Assembly (NCBI RefSeq): GCF_002776575.1
Contig: NZ_CP022548.1
Span: 3,735,001 to 3,799,000, forward strand
Direction: 5' to 3'
Origin: Sphingorhabdus sp. YGSMI21
Lineage (GTDB): Bacteria; Pseudomonadota; Alphaproteobacteria; Sphingomonadales; Sphingomonadaceae
Length of the DNA: 64,000 nt
Part shown: piece after piece, positions 863-14,403 of the stretch
Layout: each line of letters begins with the position of its first letter
Position numbering within the stretch: position 1 is the stretch's first letter
Position numbers and translations under genes: made by a program
Notes under the pieces: generated by a model
The model's input: the letters and a program-made list of their open reading frames with translations, nothing else
What the model was told of the DNA's origin: nothing
Database searches by the model: none

Positions 863-3133
863 TCAAGCCGGATTCGGCTTTGCCACCGGCGCCAGCAATT
901 GCCCGAGTTCTCTAACCAGAAGCGCGGATTGGATCGGCTTGACCAGATGGGGGGAGCTACCAAATATCGCTGGCCGGTCATCCCTGCTGCGCCCCGAGAT
1001 CGAAAGAAACGGCGTACCCGCTTGGGACAGCAGCTCGGCGACGGGCGCCGATGTCTCTTTGCCCAGATTGATATCCAGCACTGCCGCATCGCACATCTGG
1101 TTCTCCAATATCGCAAGCGCGCCCGAGGCCGTCGCTACGGGGCCGAAAATTTCAAATCCGGCGGCTTTCAATATTTCGGAGACTTCCATGCCGATCAATA
1201 TTTCGTCTTCCACGACCAATATCCGCGCGGAATCCGAAATGGAGGATTGCCCCATATGGGCAGCAGCACGCGATTTCTGGGTCGACACTTCCAGATTGTC
1301 GAGAACCTTGTCGGCCGGGCAATTCACATGACACACGAGACCGGTCGGGAACCAGTCCAGACTGACCTCGCCATTGATGCTCGCTGACAATATCTGGTCG
1401 ATCACCGTTGAACCGAAGCCGTTGCGGGACGGCTTTGTGACTTCCGGCCCTCCCCGCTCGATCCAGTCGAGCAACAGCCGCTGTTCGGAAATCTCCTCCC
1501 CGTCCAGCCTCCAGTCGATCTCGACCGTCCCCTCATCGTTGGACAAGGCTCCGTATTTTGCCGCATTTGTGGCGAGTTCGTGCAGTGCCATTCCGATCGC
1601 CTGAGCAGCCGGAGCGGTTATCTTGAGTGACGGGCCGGACAATTTAATCCGCTCTCCGAATATGTCCTGAAAATGCCCCAGTTGCGATCGGACGAGCTCA
1701 TCCAGCGGAACATTCTGCCAGTAGCTGTTGACCAGAACGTCATGGCTTGCGGACAGCGCGAGAATGCGTTCGTCGAACCGCTGCGCAAATGTCTCTGCGT
1801 CATTTGCGGCGGTCTGCCGCGCAATCACCTGCACCAGCGTCAGCATATTCTTCGCGCGATGGTTGACTTCTCCCATCAGCAGCTGCTCGCGGGCTTCTGC
1901 GAGTTTCCTGTCACTTATGTCATGGGCAATTTTCGACGCGCCGACGATAGTACCGCCGGAATCGAATATCGGCGAGACGGTGACGGAAACATCCACTTCC
2001 CGCCCATCCTTGCACAGCCTGATTGTTTCATAATTGTTGACCTGCTCGGCGCGACTGATCTGGGCGAGAATATTCTCTTCCTCATGCTGCCGATCGGCGG
2101 GAATGAGCAGGCGAATGGATTTGCCGATCATCTCTTCAGCCGTATAGCCGAAAATCTTCTGCGCTCCGCTGTTCCAACTTTTAATCGTACCGTCCAGCGT
2201 CTTGGATATAATGGCTTCGCTGGAGCAGGATACGATCGCGGCCAGATGAGCCTGCGCTTCTTCCGCCCGCTTGCGATCGGTGATGTCGCTGATCGACGCA
2301 TAGAAGAGATTCTCCACGCCGGGAAAATATTGCAGCTGGACGGCGACGTCATAAACGGACCCGTTCTTCCGCTGATGCTGCGTTTCGAACGTCTGGTTGG
2401 CGATCTCGCCGTTCCGCAACGGCGTCACATGACTGATGAATTGCTCTCTGGAAAATTGCGGTTTTATATCCCAGGGCGTCAACTGGCGCAGCTCTTCCAT
2501 GGAATAGCCGAGATTTTCCCGCGCTCCGCGATTGACCAGTTCGAAATGATAGCTGTTCGCATCGAAAATATAGACTTCGCTGACCGAATCCTCGACGATA
2601 CGCCCAAGCCGTTCGTTGAGCGAGGCGGTCGCCAATCGCTCCAGTTCGGCGGCTGCCCGACCGGAAAACACCTCGATCACCTCGGCAGCCTGGTCAGCAT
2701 CTTCAAATGGCTTCTCATCCAGCACCGAAAGCAGGCCGAGCACCTCCCCCGACGCGCTACGCAATGGCGTTCCGACATAGCTGACAGCCCCCATGTCTTT
2801 CAGCATCCGGTCCCGCGGGAACAGGTCGATGATATTTTCGGGATAGCAGCAAGCGCCCTGCCCCACGATATTCTCGCAGGGGCTGTCTTTCAGATCATAT
2901 TCGAAATTGTCGCCGGGGCCGTCATCCCATACCGCTACGGTGCAGGCTTTACCGCGATCAACGGGATGGAGCGTGCTCAAAAACACCCATCGGGCCGAAA
3001 GCGTTTCCGCCAGCACTTCTACCATGACCGGGAAAAATGCTTCTCCCACGACCTGAGAGCAGGAGGCCAATTTGGCCTGAATGGACGGGAAGGAAGCAAC
3101 GGAGCTTTTTGCCGGCTGAGTGAATTGAACCAT
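863..3133 (-). CDS. hybrid sensor histidine kinase, HWE family, GAF-PAS-PAS-kinase-receiver
   Basis: Predicted soluble sensor kinase of 756 residues with no membrane segment. A GAF-like domain covers about 18-165, two PAS domains about 183-285 and 295-405 (each ending in a DITDRK or DISDRK linker), then an HWE/HisKA_2-type kinase. The phospho-acceptor is His425 in GEVNHRAKNML; the ATP-binding part includes HELATNAAKYGAL and GFGSTVI. A receiver domain ends the protein (about 635-750; VVEDE, phospho-site Asp in AVLDINL, Lys in LVKPI). The start is the only in-frame ATG after an upstream stop; its ribosome binding site is weak. In alphaproteobacteria HWE/HisKA_2 kinases often feed the general stress or light response, but the signal here is unknown. 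It stands alone, divergent from the small membrane gene at 3316. Confidence 0.9.
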   Translation of the reverse strand: MVQFTQPAKSSVASFPSIQAKLASCSQVVGEAFFPVMVEVLAETLSARWVFLSTLHPVDRGKACTVAVWDDGPGDNFEYDLKDSPCENIVGQGACCYPENIIDLFPRDRMLKDMGAVSYVGTPLRSASGEVLGLLSVLDEKPFEDADQAAEVIEVFSGRAAAELERLATASLNERLGRIVEDSVSEVYIFDANSYHFELVNRGARENLGYSMEELRQLTPWDIKPQFSREQFISHVTPLRNGEIANQTFETQHQRKNGSVYDVAVQLQYFPGVENLFYASISDITDRKRAEEAQAHLAAIVSCSSEAIISKTLDGTIKSWNSGAQKIFGYTAEEMIGKSIRLLIPADRQHEEENILAQISRAEQVNNYETIRLCKDGREVDVSVTVSPIFDSGGTIVGASKIAHDISDRKLAEAREQLLMGEVNHRAKNMLTLVQVIARQTAANDAETFAQRFDERILALSASHDVLVNSYWQNVPLDELVRSQLGHFQDIFGERIKLSGPSLKITAPAAQAIGMALHELATNAAKYGALSNDEGTVEIDWRLDGEEISEQRLLLDWIERGGPEVTKPSRNGFGSTVIDQILSASINGEVSLDWFPTGLVCHVNCPADKVLDNLEVSTQKSRAAAHMGQSSISDSARILVVEDEILIGMEVSEILKAAGFEIFGPVATASGALAILENQMCDAAVLDINLGKETSAPVAELLSQAGTPFLSISGRSRDDRPAIFGSSPHLVKPIQSALLVRELGQLLAPVAKPNPA

Positions 3134-3252
3134 CGATCCGTTCCCAAAGAAAAAACATTAAGACGTTCGCACGCTTCCCGCAACAGTTTCTTCGCCCCCG
3201 CGCACGGTTGCAACAATGACACTGCCGAATTTCCGTCAATTTTCAGATAGCG

Positions 3253-3282
3253 CTTGACAATGAGAACATAAATGGAACATTA
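3253..3282 (+). promoter_or_regulatory. putative promoter with LexA-like box for the 3316 gene
   Basis: A perfect -35 hexamer TTGACA (3253-3258) is followed by a weak -10 candidate, CATTAA, at 3277-3282 (18-bp spacer). Between them sits GAAC-ATAAATG-GAAC (3263-3277), an exact match to the alphaproteobacterial LexA operator GAAC-N7-GAAC. The second GAAC also forms a palindromic GAAC-N7-GTTC with 3285-3288. A start near 3288 would give a leader of about 28 nt. Promoter and operator function are inferred; one or two chance matches to the 8 fixed bases are expected per 64 kb, so the position is the main argument. Confidence 0.5.
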
Positions 3283-3315
3283 AGAGTTCATCAAAAGAAC
3301 AAACGGGATTGTCAC

Positions 3316-3558
3316 ATGCTTGCTATCGCCATTTCGACCTTTTTTGCCCTTGCCCTATTCGGCTCTATCGCGGTGATTGCGATGATGTTCGCCCAATATC
3401 GTGACAGGATTTCTGCGGTCATCCAGAGCGAATTCAATGACCAGCGGCCCGTGACAGTCATCCAGCCGACAGCCTGTCGCCACCGGAAGGTCAAGACACC
3501 ACAATCTATGACCCCGCACCGCTCGCTTCAGCCCGCTCCGCTGCGCGCTGCCGCTTGA
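3316..3558 (+). CDS. small single-helix membrane protein, possibly SOS-controlled
   Basis: An 80-residue protein of unknown function. Residues 3-26 form one strong hydrophobic helix (AIAISTFFALALFGSIAVIAM region). A charged stretch follows (AQYRDRISAVIQSEFNDQR), then a basic, proline-rich tail. No cleavage site is evident, so it probably stays anchored in the inner membrane. The ATG at 3316 has only a weak GGGA upstream. The last 53 bp overlap the 3' end of pssA on the other strand, so the C-terminal part may be poorly conserved. The upstream site with a LexA-like box suggests induction by DNA damage. Size and topology recall SOS-induced division inhibitors such as Caulobacter SidA, but I see no sequence match that would prove this. 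Confidence 0.55.
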   Translation: MLAIAISTFFALALFGSIAVIAMMFAQYRDRISAVIQSEFNDQRPVTVIQPTACRHRKVKTPQSMTPHRSLQPAPLRAAA

Positions 3559-4300
3559 CCCGCGCATAGCTTCTGATGCTGAACGGAATGAGGATCAGGT
3601 AGCCGATACTGATTGCCGAGAGCATGATCCACGGCGAGTTGATCAGGGCAACACCAACCAGCGCCACCACGGCAATCCCCTCCAGCCTGATATTTTTGCG
3701 CAAACGCAGCGATGACCAGCTGAACGTCGCCGTATTCGAAATCATCAGAAACGCGATCAGCACGATCCACGGTGACACCAGAGCATAGTGACGGAAGATT
3801 TCCTCTCCGGTAATCAACCACAGATAGAGTGGCAACATCGCCAGTCCCGCGCCCACCGGTGCCGGAATACCGGTAAGAAATCCGGCTGATTTGTGCGGCT
3901 GGTCCTGATCATCGATCAAGGCATTGAAGCGTGCGAGGCGCAAGGCGCAACCCACCACCATGGTCAGTGCCAGCACCCAGCCGAATTGCGGCATATATTG
4001 GGTCGACCATAGAAACATGACAAGCGCGGGAGACACGCCAAAGGCGATCACATCGGATAACGAATCGAGCTCCGCGCCAAACCGGCTCTGCGCGTTCAGC
4101 AAACGGGCGATCCGGCCATCCAGACCGTCCAATATTCCTGCCAGAACAATCGCCGCTGCTGCCAGCACCCAATTATCCAGATAAGCGAAGCGAACGCTGC
4201 TCAGGCCAACGCACAATGCCAGCGCGGTCACCGCGTTCGGAACAAAAGCGCGCAGCGGAATACCGCGTTCGGGACGCTTCATCGAACCTTTGCCGACCAT
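3506..4300 (-). CDS. pssA: CDP-diacylglycerol--serine O-phosphatidyltransferase
   Basis: Makes phosphatidylserine from CDP-diacylglycerol and serine in the inner membrane, the step before phosphatidylserine decarboxylase. The CDP-alcohol phosphotransferase signature is clear: DGLDGRIARL, then FGAELDSLSD, giving the D-G-x2-A-R-x8-G-x3-D-x3-D pattern. Several hydrophobic helices follow. I chose the ATG at 4300 (protein starts MVGKGSMKRPERG) because GGAG lies 8 nt upstream; the frame extends to a TTG at 4321 and a second ATG lies at 4282. It follows psd by 37 bp on the same strand, so the two probably form one transcript. The C-terminal 53 bp overlap the small membrane gene at 3316. Confidence 0.92.
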   Translation of the reverse strand: MVGKGSMKRPERGIPLRAFVPNAVTALALCVGLSSVRFAYLDNWVLAAAAIVLAGILDGLDGRIARLLNAQSRFGAELDSLSDVIAFGVSPALVMFLWSTQYMPQFGWVLALTMVVGCALRLARFNALIDDQDQPHKSAGFLTGIPAPVGAGLAMLPLYLWLITGEEIFRHYALVSPWIVLIAFLMISNTATFSWSSLRLRKNIRLEGIAVVALVGVALINSPWIMLSAISIGYLILIPFSIRSYARVKRQRAAERAEASGAGS

Positions 4301-4337
4301 CAGCGTTGCTCCATCCGGCAAGGGGGCAGTGCGGAGA

Positions 4338-5072
4338 TCATTGCCCTACACCCTCAATTTCCTTCGTCCGGCCAATCACGGCAAGAATTGTTTCGCCGGC
4401 AATGGCCCGCTGGCCCAGCACGACATTCGGTTCCGTTCCCTTTGGCAAGTAGACATCAACCCGGCTACCGAAGCGGATCAGTCCGATTCGCTGTCCGGCT
4501 GCGACAAAATCGCCTTCCTTGACAAAGGCCATGATCCGCCGGGCCACCAGACCAGCTATCTGTGTAAAACCGACCTTGAGGCCATCATTGCGTTCAACCA
4601 TGAAATGCTGCCGTTCATTTTCTTCGCTGGCCTTGTCGAGATCGGCGTTGAGAAATTTTCCGGAAATATAGGCCTGCCGTTTCACCGTACCCTCAATCGG
4701 GGTACGATTGATATGGACATCAAACACGCTCATGAAGATCGAGACACGGATCAGTTCCTCGCTGCCGAGGCCGCCCTCACCCTGCAGTTCCAGCGGCGGC
4801 GTAACCGGCATGATCAGGTTCACCAGTCCGTCGGCGGGCGCAACGATATAATTTTCATTGAGCGGGGTAACTCTTTTGGGATCGCGAAAAAACGCCAATA
4901 CCCATATTGTGATACCAGCCATTGGCCAGGCCAGCGTCTCCCATGCCATGACCGCAAAAAACGCTGTGATGGCCCCGGCGATGACGGCAAATTTCCGCCC
5001 TTCGGGATGGATCGGCGGGAAAGACCATTTGGCTTCACCCAGCCCCTTGTTTGAATATTTTTCAATCGCCAT
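4338..5072 (-). CDS. psd: phosphatidylserine decarboxylase proenzyme
   Basis: Converts phosphatidylserine to phosphatidylethanolamine. The proenzyme cleaves itself at a Gly-Ser bond to create a pyruvoyl group; the likely site is the GS in [13 protein letters not shown] near the C-terminus. At 244 residues this is the short bacterial type. Two hydrophobic segments near the N-terminus (about 28-45 and 49-66) give membrane anchoring. Other family features are [13 protein letters not shown] and the DGLV segment. The ATG at 5072 has no strong ribosome binding site. It sits directly before pssA in the order psd-pssA, typical of alphaproteobacteria. Confidence 0.95.
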
Positions 5073-6491: not shown

Positions 6492-7712
6492 CCGTTCGAC
6501 CGGAATTTCGGGCGAGCGGATATCCTCTCGCCCGAAGCCGAGACCGACGACACGGCCGGGAATACGCCGCAACCACGGCACCCGGTTCAACAGCCTCAAC
6601 ATGAAAAACGCTTTGTCGATTGGCTCCGTTCGGCGCAAAAGCGGCGCGATGACACGATCCTGCGCGATTTTCTGAAAGGCCTGCATCCGGCGCACCGGTT
6701 TGATCCGGCGGGCATATACCCGTTCCAGTAGCGGGTCGGGATTATCTCCTCTCGCCATCGGACCGGCCAGAACATTGGCGGCCGTGACCGCGTCCTGGAC
6801 AGCCATATTGATACCGACCCCGGCAATCGGTGACATCGCATGGGCCGCGTCGCCGATCGCCAGCAGGCCGGGGCGATGCCAGCGCTCCAGCCGGTCCAGC
6901 GCCACTTCCCGCATCTTCACCTGATCCCAGCTGACTATCTGGTCGAAAGCCTCTCGCAAGTTGGGAACGAGCGACCGCAAGCCCGTGCGAAAGGCCTCCA
7001 GCCCGGCGGCTTTTACCTGACCGGCCTGCCCCTTGTTGAAGATATAGGCGCATTGATAATAATCCTGGCGATCAATCATCACCATGAAACGGCCCGCCTG
7101 AACCGTTCCGAACACGTCGCCACCCTGGCCTTCGGGTTTATCGATGCGGAACCAGAACACATCCATCGGCGCGCCTATATTTTGCAGGGGCAGCTTTGCC
7201 TTGCCGCGCAACACCGATCGCCTGCCGTCCGCGGCAATCACCAGTTTGGCCGCCAGCACTTGCCCGTCCGCAGTCTCGACACCGCACACCCGATCAGCCT
7301 TGTCATAGACCAGATCGACCGCTTCACTTTTCATATGCAAGTCAAACCCGGAATATTGCTTTGCCTTGCCGGCGATGAAATTGAGCAGATCCCATTGCGG
7401 CATCATCGCGATATAAGGCGCCGCTACCGGCAAATGACGGAAATCCAGTACTTTCATCTGCTGGCCAGCGATGTGGATCGATGCCTGTTCCAGCCTGCTG
7501 TGCGGCAATTGCAATAACTCGTCCAGCATGCCCAGTTGATGGAAAAGCTCCAGTGTCGAGGGATGAACCGTATCGCCCCTGAAATCCCGCAGAAAATCCG
7601 CATGTTTCTCGAGCACCGCTGTTTTCAGTCCGGCGCGGACGAACAGCAAGCCGGCCATCATCCCCGCAGGGCCACCGCCTACAATCACAATATCATGCTT
7701 ATTTTCCAACAT
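6486..7712 (-). CDS. FAD-dependent monooxygenase of the PHBH/UbiH fold
   Basis: A 408-residue flavoprotein with the N-terminal Rossmann motif [17 protein letters not shown], a middle DG motif (VIAADGRRS) and the second FAD motif [22 protein letters not shown]. These define the aromatic-ring hydroxylase/ubiquinone hydroxylase group; the substrate cannot be told from sequence. The frame extends upstream to 7955, but that part is low-complexity and antisense to the antiporter gene. The ATG at 7712 has GGAG upstream and begins right at the FAD motif, so I chose it. It is divergent from the Kef-type antiporter (60 bp gap) and convergent with icd. Confidence 0.88.
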
Positions 7713-7772
7713 TCGCTTTCTCCGCCACGTAACCTGCTGACAAATAGCATTGATCGCGTATAGAGTCGCCCC

Positions 7773-9602
7773 ATGCACAGTCCGCTTGAAAATCCAGCCT
7801 TTATCGATGCCATCGTGATCCTCGGCGCCGCCGGGATCGTTATTCCGGCCTTCGCCCGGTTCCGGATCACGCCGATCATCGGATTCATCCTGGTAGGCGT
7901 CTTGCTCGGACCGTCGGGACTGGGCTCGCTGCAGGGTCAATATAGCTGGCTGCAATTTGTCACCATCAATGATCGCGAGGCTATCGAGCCCTTTGCCGAG
8001 ATGGGCATCATATTGCTGCTCTTTTCCATCGGACTGGAACTATCATTCAAGCGGCTCTGGTCGTTGCGCCGGCTCGTCTTCGGCGTCGGCGCGGCGGAAT
8101 TGCTCGCTTCCGGCCTGATCATCGGCTCTGTCCTCTATCTGCTTGGCCAGAATTCCGCCGGCGCCCTGGGTCTGGGACTGGCGCTTGCGCTGTCCTCAAC
8201 CGCTCTCGTGCTGCCAATGTCGGGCACCAAGAGTCCGGTCGGACGAGCGGCACTGGCCATGCTCCTGTTCGAGGACGTCGCCATCGTTCCGATCATTTTC
8301 CTGCTCGGCGCTATCTCTCCGGCGATCACGGCCGATGGCGGGTGGGATGATCTGGGCCGCACATTGCTGATGGGCGGTGCCGTGATCATCGGCATGCTGG
8401 TGCTCGGCCGGCTGCTGCTGCCGCGCATATTTGCGCAGGCCGCCCGCACCAAGAGCCCGGAACTGTTTCTCGCGGTAAGCCTTCTGGTGATCATCCTCGC
8501 CAGCCTCGCAACCGCCGCAACCGGCCTGTCGCCGATCGTCGGCGCATTGCTGGCCGGCCTGCTGATCGCGGAAACCGAATATCATGGCGAGGTGGAAGTC
8601 ATCACCCAGCCCTTCAAGGGCCTTGCGCTGGGCGTATTCCTGATCACCGTGGGCATGCAGATCGATATTCGCGTGATCATGGCCAACTGGTCGGATCTGC
8701 TGATCGCCGTCGTCGGAGTGGTCCTGATCAAGGCGATCGTCACCAGCAGCCTGCTTCGCTTTGCCGGCGCACGGCCCGGCACCGCAACCGAGGCCGGCGT
8801 CCTGATGTCCAGCCCGTCCGAAACGACCCTGATCGTCTTGGCCGCGGCGACTCAGGCGCAGCTGATCCAGCCCCAGACGGCAGCTTTCTGGCAGATCGTG
8901 ACGGCTATCGGCCTGACCATCACGCCATTGCTCGCCCGCTTTGGCCATGACATCGCCCGGCGTATGGAAATGCGCAGCGGCGGTAGTGCAGCGGCGGATG
9001 AATTGCCGGTAGAGGCGCAGCAGACCATCATCATCGGCTTTGGCCGGGTCGGCAAGCTGATCGCCGATCTCTTAACCACCCACAATCAAAAATATCTCGC
9101 CGTCGAGACGAATATCGACACTGTCGCCAAGGCCCGGCGCGACGGCTATCCGATCATGTTCGGCAATGTGTCGCGAAACGAAATGCTCGACCGGTTGCGG
9201 CTGGGCCATGCGAAGGCGCTGGTGCTGACGATGGACGAGCCTGTGCTGTCGGTGCAGATCGTCAAGAAGGTCCGGGCCTGGGTACCCGATCTCCCGATCA
9301 TCGCCAGGGCGCGGGACATCGAACATGCCGCCGAACTCTATCAGGCCGGGGCGACCAATGCCGTGCCCGAAGCGCTCGAGGGCTCGCTGCAACTGTCAGA
9401 GGCTGTACTGGTCGAAAATGGCGTGGCAATGGGACCCGTCATTGCCTCTATCCACGAACTGCGCGATATTTACCGCAAACGGATACAGGAAGAAGGCGAT
9501 CTGGAGCACGAACCCAAACTGAAATCCATGTCCACTTCTACCGGTCAGGCGACCGCCGACGATCTGGTGCCGGACGGCCTCAGCCCGCAAGAACAGACCT
9601 GA
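7773..9602 (+). CDS. Kef-type monovalent cation:proton antiporter with RCK domain
   Basis: A 609-residue inner-membrane protein. About the first 390 residues are a CPA2-type antiporter of roughly 12 helices, with [23 protein letters not shown] and [19 protein letters not shown] as family markers. A TrkA-N/RCK domain follows, with the nucleotide-binding GFGRVG at 422-427 and a conserved acidic residue after the second strand (LAVETNID). Such proteins exchange K+ or Na+ for protons and are gated by NAD(H) or glutathione adducts. No KefF/KefG-like partner lies beside it. The C-terminal 23 bp overlap alaS on the opposite strand. The exact ion is not predictable. Confidence 0.9.
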
Positions 9603-14388: not shown

Positions 14389-14403
14389 GAACAAGAGTAG
14401 AAC
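14389..14403 (-). promoter_or_regulatory. LexA box of recA
   Basis: On the plus strand GAAC-AAGAGTA-GAAC, read on the recA strand as GTTC-N7-GTTC, the known alphaproteobacterial LexA operator. An overlapping palindrome GTTC-N5-GAAC starts at 14380. It sits 76 bp upstream of the recA ATG. A second, weak hairpin (ATCATCA/TGATGAT) lies in the recA leader between 14344 and 14368. Confidence 0.85.

Follow-up and report, generated by a model that had tools for sequence, protein, structure and literature searches.

A short gene of Sphingorhabdus sp. YGSMI21 encodes a predicted single-helix membrane protein of 80 amino acids ending in PLRAAA, and sequence comparison makes it very nearly certain that this gene is under LexA control. 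It lies at positions 3316–3558 of the forward strand in the window, i.e., the whole stretch of 64,000 nucleotides that was analyzed, and was defined from its open reading frame, its orthologues, a coding test and an AlphaFold2 model. Reasoning from these features and from analogy, we consider it fairly probable that this is a LexA-repressed SOS gene whose product, a bitopic inner-membrane protein, halts cell division during DNA damage. The gene appears from our searches to be conserved through most of its family, which we take to be the Sphingomonadaceae, and to be limited to it. SOS division inhibitors are unrelated between bacterial groups, and their tiny size and rapid evolution make them difficult to find. 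The small protein is a new, unrecognized family of a known functional kind. Its gene is a concrete one that can be located by its position, preceded by a LexA box and tail-to-tail with pssA. This holds for 47 of the 57 genera sampled, and the DNA-damage checkpoint of sphingomonads is therefore directly testable.

Candidate promoter and LexA box

The region upstream of the small gene presents a −35-like hexamer, TTGACA (3254–3259), followed on the same forward strand by the candidate LexA box GAACATAAATGGAAC (3264–3278), which has the form GAAC-N7-GAAC. The best −10 candidate by eye is CATTAA (3278–3283), a weak element with three of six matches to TATAAT and an 18-nt spacer from TTGACA. The box fills this spacer and shares one base with the putative −10. 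Two additional forward-strand half-sites continue in an 11-bp register, namely an inverted GTTC (3286–3289; 24 of 29 genus orthologues) and a GAAC within the leader (3297–3300; 29 of 29). The alphaproteobacterial LexA box is given as GTTC-N7-GTTC in an excerpt of PMC3323433, and the motif of GAACATAAATGGAAC is its reverse complement. A preliminary description of this DNA had reported TTGACA, a GAAC-N7-GAAC inside the spacer and a weak −10, and had read the motif as a LexA box of alphaproteobacterial form; all three elements are present, and the form agrees with the published one. That description did not include the two additional half-sites, the overlap with pssA, the Ala-Ala end or the occurrence throughout the family, all given below or above.

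By a first-order model, 0.0016 boxes are expected by chance per 150 nt on one strand. Genome-wide, the plain motif has 52 + 58 matches vs 36 + 40 for the motif read backwards (110 vs 76, or 1.45 times). Because this enrichment over the reversed control is modest, a single box constitutes weak evidence. Counting both strands, the window contains one further exact GAAC-N7-GAAC, GAACAAGAGTAGAAC (14389–14403).

Conservation of the box within the genus

The nearest named relatives are Sphingorhabdus and Parasphingorhabdus. We found the small protein in 30 of the 32 genomes of the genus, own genome included, and the two misses (G004 and G021) are 67% and 73% complete. Every one of the 30 orthologues starts with ATG and is 79–87 amino acids long. 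GAAC-N7-GAAC precedes the ATG in all 30, at −52 in 29 of them and at −53 in one, and TTGACA is located 9 or 10 nt 5' of the box in all 30. When the locus with the one-base shift (L023) is left out, the four half-sites GAAC, GAAC, GTTC and GAAC are kept in the 11-bp register in 29, 29, 24 and 29 of 29 orthologues, respectively.

The small gene converges with pssA (3506–4321, reverse strand; start codon as listed mechanically), which encodes CDP-diacylglycerol-serine O-phosphatidyltransferase. The assignment is based on NCBIfam TIGR00473, with a score of 102.5 bits that falls just below the cut-off of 107. The two genes overlap tail-to-tail by 53 nt (3506–3558). In the other direction, a large PAS-containing histidine kinase with a receiver-like C-terminal domain (863–3133, reverse strand) is divergent from the small gene; it resembles blue-light-activated kinases with a score below the family cut-off. 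We rejected the idea that the box serves this kinase: in the flanking sequence examined, only 3 of the 30 genus loci showed similarity to the kinase, while the box accompanies the small gene. The upstream neighbor changes while pssA is constant downstream (convergent in 30/30 loci), and therefore the box belongs to the small gene.

The spacing of half-sites differs at some loci outside the window's genus. Upstream of L043, L044, L047 and L048, the arrangement read by eye is GAAC-N7-GAAC-N5-GAAC, a spacing shorter than the 11-bp register of the genus, and the extra half-site is possibly a second LexA contact.

Distribution across the family and the order

We searched 397 genomes of the family with profile A1, built from the 30 genus proteins, and obtained matches in 41 genomes belonging to 15 of 96 genera. 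The earlier search that identified the genus proteins had given two weak matches outside the genus, in G038 and G062. Sphingopyxis was also among the groups with relatives of the small protein, according to a protein listing. A1 matched 31 non-genus genomes, and among the 20 of these whose loci were examined, 19 presented an exact box no more than 160 nt from the start and 19 presented a convergent pssA. A second profile, A2, matched 118 of 396 genomes of the order. From these we counted 73 further matches with no in-frame stop, an E-value up to 0.0033 and a position outside alignment A2, leaving out weaker or stop-bearing ones. An exact box was found in the 280 nt examined for 66 of the 73, vs 5 of 654 equally long control windows taken from the same loci. 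TTGAC was found within 25 nt before the box in 51 of these 66, vs 220 of 9296 windows of 25 nt. Convergent pssA was found at 63 of the 73 loci (at one of them, L157, pssA ends ~425 nt away), the box and convergent pssA were found together at 59, and the two genes overlap in 56 of these 59. The box and the synteny represent independent confirmation since the search used the protein only; the same cannot be said of the Ala-Ala end described below, which is part of the search profile. The preliminary description had called for a search of sphingomonad genomes and had named a box not conserved before orthologues as one of the outcomes that would refute it. Relatives were found across the family with the box mostly kept (30/30 in the genus, 19/20 and 66/73 in the distant sets), which supports, by comparison, the part of the earlier proposal that concerned SOS control of a small membrane protein.

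We also sampled pssA loci directly, taking one genome for each of 59 genera and dropping G037 and G056, for which no convincing pssA was found. At 47 of the 57 family loci, we detected a small hydrophobic ORF that is convergent with pssA and preceded by an exact box, using detector limits that were set once the features of the family were known. The other ten loci failed the detector and none is counted in the 47: in L195, L222 and L228 (52 amino acids), an exact box precedes a convergent hydrophobic ORF that falls outside the detector limits, L225, L231 and L236 carry a hydrophobic convergent ORF with no exact box, and there was no clear case in L194 (only 380 nt available downstream), L198, L218 and L233. 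The same detector was negative at all 27 control pssA loci, which represent the order's other families (27 of 30 control genomes were usable, since the rest offered insufficient sequence or lacked a listed main pssA locus). Across the class, a profile search covering 289 genomes found no strong match beyond the window's family. It returned 13 matches, three in the own family and ten elsewhere (E-values from 7e-4 to 0.0099), and five of these ten carry internal stops; the ten were assessed by profile score and reading frame. Absence from such profile searches is no proof, as they score a limited number of candidates per genome.

Box-bearing members with no pssA in the 1.5-kb flanks were L049, L116, L123, L130, L142, L143, L144 and L147. 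Several loci have unusual surroundings. In two genomes of one genus, the small gene is located away from pssA, convergent to lon and ~630–650 nt past its end (L080 in G335, ~7616–7867; L142 in G206, ~1408–1647). Lon removes SulA in E. coli, as stated in an excerpt of PMC13396833, and this neighborhood is either suggestive or accidental. In another genus, the gene convergent with a box-bearing small gene encodes an adenylate kinase, and the small protein ends in PEAA (L123 and L130, in G220 and G157). Finally, G138 presents two tandem profile matches ~600 nt apart (L148 and L116, C1:2190349 and 2190953); we saw an exact box in front of the second match only.

Coding potential and predicted protein structure

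The small gene extends from the ATG at 3316–3318 to the TGA at 3556–3558 and comprises 80 codons. We compared the first 42 codons, which lie outside the pssA overlap, across 100 pairs of sequences that were each less than 30% diverged. Synonymous changes accounted for 1070 of 1571 single-base codon differences (68%) vs an expectation of 24%, and because of this excess we conclude that the small protein is under purifying selection. The 80-codon gene with one N-terminal helix that had been described earlier thus corresponds to a real frame, and its helix to a predicted one.

The predicted transmembrane helix spans about residues 3–25 (3322–3390, forward strand), based on hydropathy, structure and helical periodicity. 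The AlphaFold2 model (79 sequences) presents one helix over residues 2–40, confident to about residue 30 and followed by a low-confidence tail, with a mean pLDDT of 72.7 and a pTM of 0.37. Across 96 proteins, all measured from the start of the profile match, the mean length is 80 amino acids (66–108) and the hydrophobic stretch begins at about residue 3. The charge ahead of this stretch is near zero on average, and 94 of the 96 have a tail with a net positive charge. By the positive-inside rule, this charge pattern predicts that the C-terminus is inside. Conservation along the helix follows a period of 95–100 degrees, and none of 2000 shuffles gave a periodicity as strong, which suggests that the conserved face is a protein-binding face. 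Overall, the product is predicted by these models to be a short protein with a single transmembrane helix, as small division inhibitors are.

The C-terminal LRAAA (codons at 3541–3555, forward strand) is a putative degron, as suggested by the conservation of the Ala-Ala end. This end is found in 30/30 genus proteins, 18/20 of the first distant set and 64/73 of the further proteins, as well as in 41 of 47 proteins of the pssA-anchored loci (hand count). Within the overlap, this conservation is not independent because the codons are partly shared with opposite pssA codons. Among box-bearing members of the second set, Ala-Ala is present in 51 of 56 that overlap pssA, in two of three that adjoin it without overlap and in all seven located away from it, vs 20 of 446 mechanically listed long ORFs. 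We do not fully reject Ala-Ala as a by-product of the overlap: the seven unlinked members that keep it come from two genera only, and L049, a member of the first distant set away from pssA, ends in RVA. LAA-COOH is a described ClpXP signal (excerpt of PMC7857536), and it is plausible that the C-terminal Ala-Ala is a degron. The conserved end provides a testable idea about exit from arrest.

Relation to known families and systems

No Pfam, NCBIfam or PADLOC family convincingly matches the small protein. Seven Pfam families matched one member each of 47 (best E-value 0.0029) and two of five proteins had weak PHROG matches of unknown function (E-values of 0.01 and 0.0025); all were disregarded. 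Where named, the source annotations of relatives are hypothetical or uncharacterized (30 proteins in one set and the best 120 of 276 in another). Among the matches listed from the open-access literature, no title or abstract start mentioned a sphingomonad SOS division inhibitor. The earlier statement that no sphingomonad counterpart is known fits both these family searches and this literature, among the matches listed. A phage origin was also considered and rejected, as no relative of the small protein was found in viral contigs.

The gene can be compared with several damage-induced membrane proteins, which we summarize from excerpts of the cited sources. SidA of Caulobacter crescentus is a protein of 29 amino acids that is SOS-induced and binds FtsW (PMC4211646). 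It resembles the protein described here as an SOS-induced small inner-membrane protein of an alphaproteobacterium with LexA control, but it is set apart, by description, by its 29 amino acids vs ~80 with a basic tail here. DidA, also from Caulobacter, is a damage-induced division inhibitor of 71 amino acids with a single transmembrane helix, but its induction is SOS-independent and relies on DriD (PMC4211646), whereas the small gene has a LexA box. SosA of Staphylococcus aureus is similar in its size (77 amino acids), its single N-terminal transmembrane helix, its SOS induction and the link between its C-terminus and turnover (PMC6851548). The sosA genes are also located at the same chromosomal location across staphylococcal species (PMC6851548). 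In contrast, the C-terminus of SosA is extracellular according to PhoA-LacZ fusions (PMC6851548) while charge predicts an inside location here, and the neighbor of our small gene is pssA; this comparison is by description and claims no sequence relation. YneA of Bacillus subtilis, which acts on FtsW, and ChiZ of Mycobacterium tuberculosis are likewise membrane proteins that are induced by damage and stop division at a late step (PMC13396833). Both possess a LysM domain (PMC13396833, PMC6851548), unlike the small protein: we found no Pfam LysM match in four small proteins at E-values up to 1 or in 47 members at E-values up to 0.1.

Proposed function and alternative explanations

Comparison or prediction supports the box with its conservation, the gene, the helix with its conserved face, the Ala-Ala end and the synteny. 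In the mechanism that we propose, LexA bound to GAAC-N7-GAAC between the −35 and the −10 would keep the small gene off until RecA-stimulated cleavage of LexA leads to its transcription. The protein of ~80 amino acids would then insert its N-terminal helix into the inner membrane, where the conserved face may bind a late component of the divisome (FtsW, FtsI or FtsN, by analogy with SidA, SosA and YneA) and septal wall synthesis would be blocked. Once damage is repaired, LexA would shut the gene and the protein would be removed via its C-terminal Ala-Ala. The protease would be of the ClpXP type if the tail is cytosolic, as favored by the positive-inside rule, or of the CtpA/Tsp type if it is periplasmic. 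We infer LexA binding, induction, membrane location, target, effect on division and degradation. The target and the mode of action may differ from those of SosA and YneA because the predicted topology, with the C-terminus inside, is opposite. Counting against this explanation are the 7 of 73 further matches without an exact box, the 10 of 57 genera that fail the detector, the modest genome-wide enrichment of the motif and the several boxes that precede genes unconnected with repair.

The main rival is that the gene encodes an SOS peptide resembling TisB or DinQ: once inserted into the inner membrane, it would discharge the proton-motive force, and growth would slow (dormancy) with the divisome left untouched. 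TisB is a short SOS-induced toxic membrane peptide with an antisense RNA. TisB and DinQ of E. coli are both SOS-controlled peptides with a single transmembrane segment, and they share with the small gene the same regulation and a small hydrophobic helix. DinQ is described, in an excerpt of PMC3567139, as a toxic single-transmembrane inner-membrane peptide under SOS regulation with an antisense RNA. No known RNA family was matched in or around our small gene (Rfam, 2800–4400 of the window, known families only). Against this rival, the 96 members measured are 66–108 amino acids long, their basic tail is long and one face of the helix is conserved, which exceeds what a pore needs, and wide syntenic inheritance within one family contrasts with the patchy pattern that we would expect of toxins. 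Such a dormancy peptide has perhaps one chance in several of being the correct explanation.

A LexA-regulated membrane protein might instead perform another task during damage, for instance as an anchor or regulator of a protease, a kinase or a repair complex. No described family matches the protein, so homology cannot give its function, and the basic tail could conceivably bind acidic partners. We nonetheless regard this as unlikely, as the size, the single helix, the instability-type C-terminus and the SOS control together fit the pattern of division inhibitors.

It is also conceivable that the transcript counts for more than the protein: it would extend, as antisense RNA, into pssA and into the next gene (psd-like by eye) and lower phosphatidylethanolamine synthesis under SOS conditions. 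The 53-nt tail-to-tail overlap, an overlap at 56 of the 59 further loci that have both a box and convergent pssA, and a convergent order kept across genera are compatible with such an effect. However, purifying selection acts on the part of the protein encoded outside the overlap, one face of its helix is conserved, and box-bearing members away from pssA exist; antisense action is therefore improbable as the main function and is best seen as a possible extra. A composite version, in which a family-wide division checkpoint of sphingomonads evolved independently of SidA and combines a C-inside blocker, self-clearing by ClpXP and an antisense transcript into phosphatidylethanolamine genes, seems to us doubtful as a whole; if true, one LexA event would slow both septation and membrane supply. 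Finally, a chance box in front of a spurious ORF, an explanation that the genome motif count near the reversed control (110 vs 76) might invite, has a negligible probability and is ruled out by positional conservation in 30/30 orthologues, the excess of synonymous changes and the contrast between 66/73 matches and 5/654 control windows.

LexA-type boxes elsewhere in the genome

lexA was present in 24 of 24 genomes tested. In this genome, the genes preceded by the motif, whichever way it points, include lexA, uvrA (of which the sequence examined contains a part), radA and radC, together with two radical-SAM genes, one UDG-linked and the other of PA0069 type. By eye, two more box-preceded genes resemble imuA and an mmcB-type gene, both unnamed by NCBIfam at the threshold used. 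Other boxes precede mobile-element-like or non-repair genes, or no clear gene. These contexts were viewed for 20-odd of the 110 genome matches, which were picked by eye for A/T-rich spacers.

Some of these boxes occur in repeated arrangements. L001 (G000 C1:82488 and 82725) and L069 (C1:1380830 and 1381069) each present a pair of LexA-type boxes 237–239 nt apart. In each pair, one box precedes the gene of a small protein (102 or 103 amino acids, pilin-like by eye and similar at the two places) and its partner precedes a putative regulator. These are perhaps two related SOS-linked integrative conjugative elements. Boxes also precede similar genes present in two copies, L004 (C1:167121) with L067 (C1:1331337) and L003 (C1:116200) with L068 (C1:1360218). 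By eye, these genes are a primase-like ORF and a phage-repressor-like ORF, which would fit mobile elements that have been duplicated and are controlled by the SOS response.
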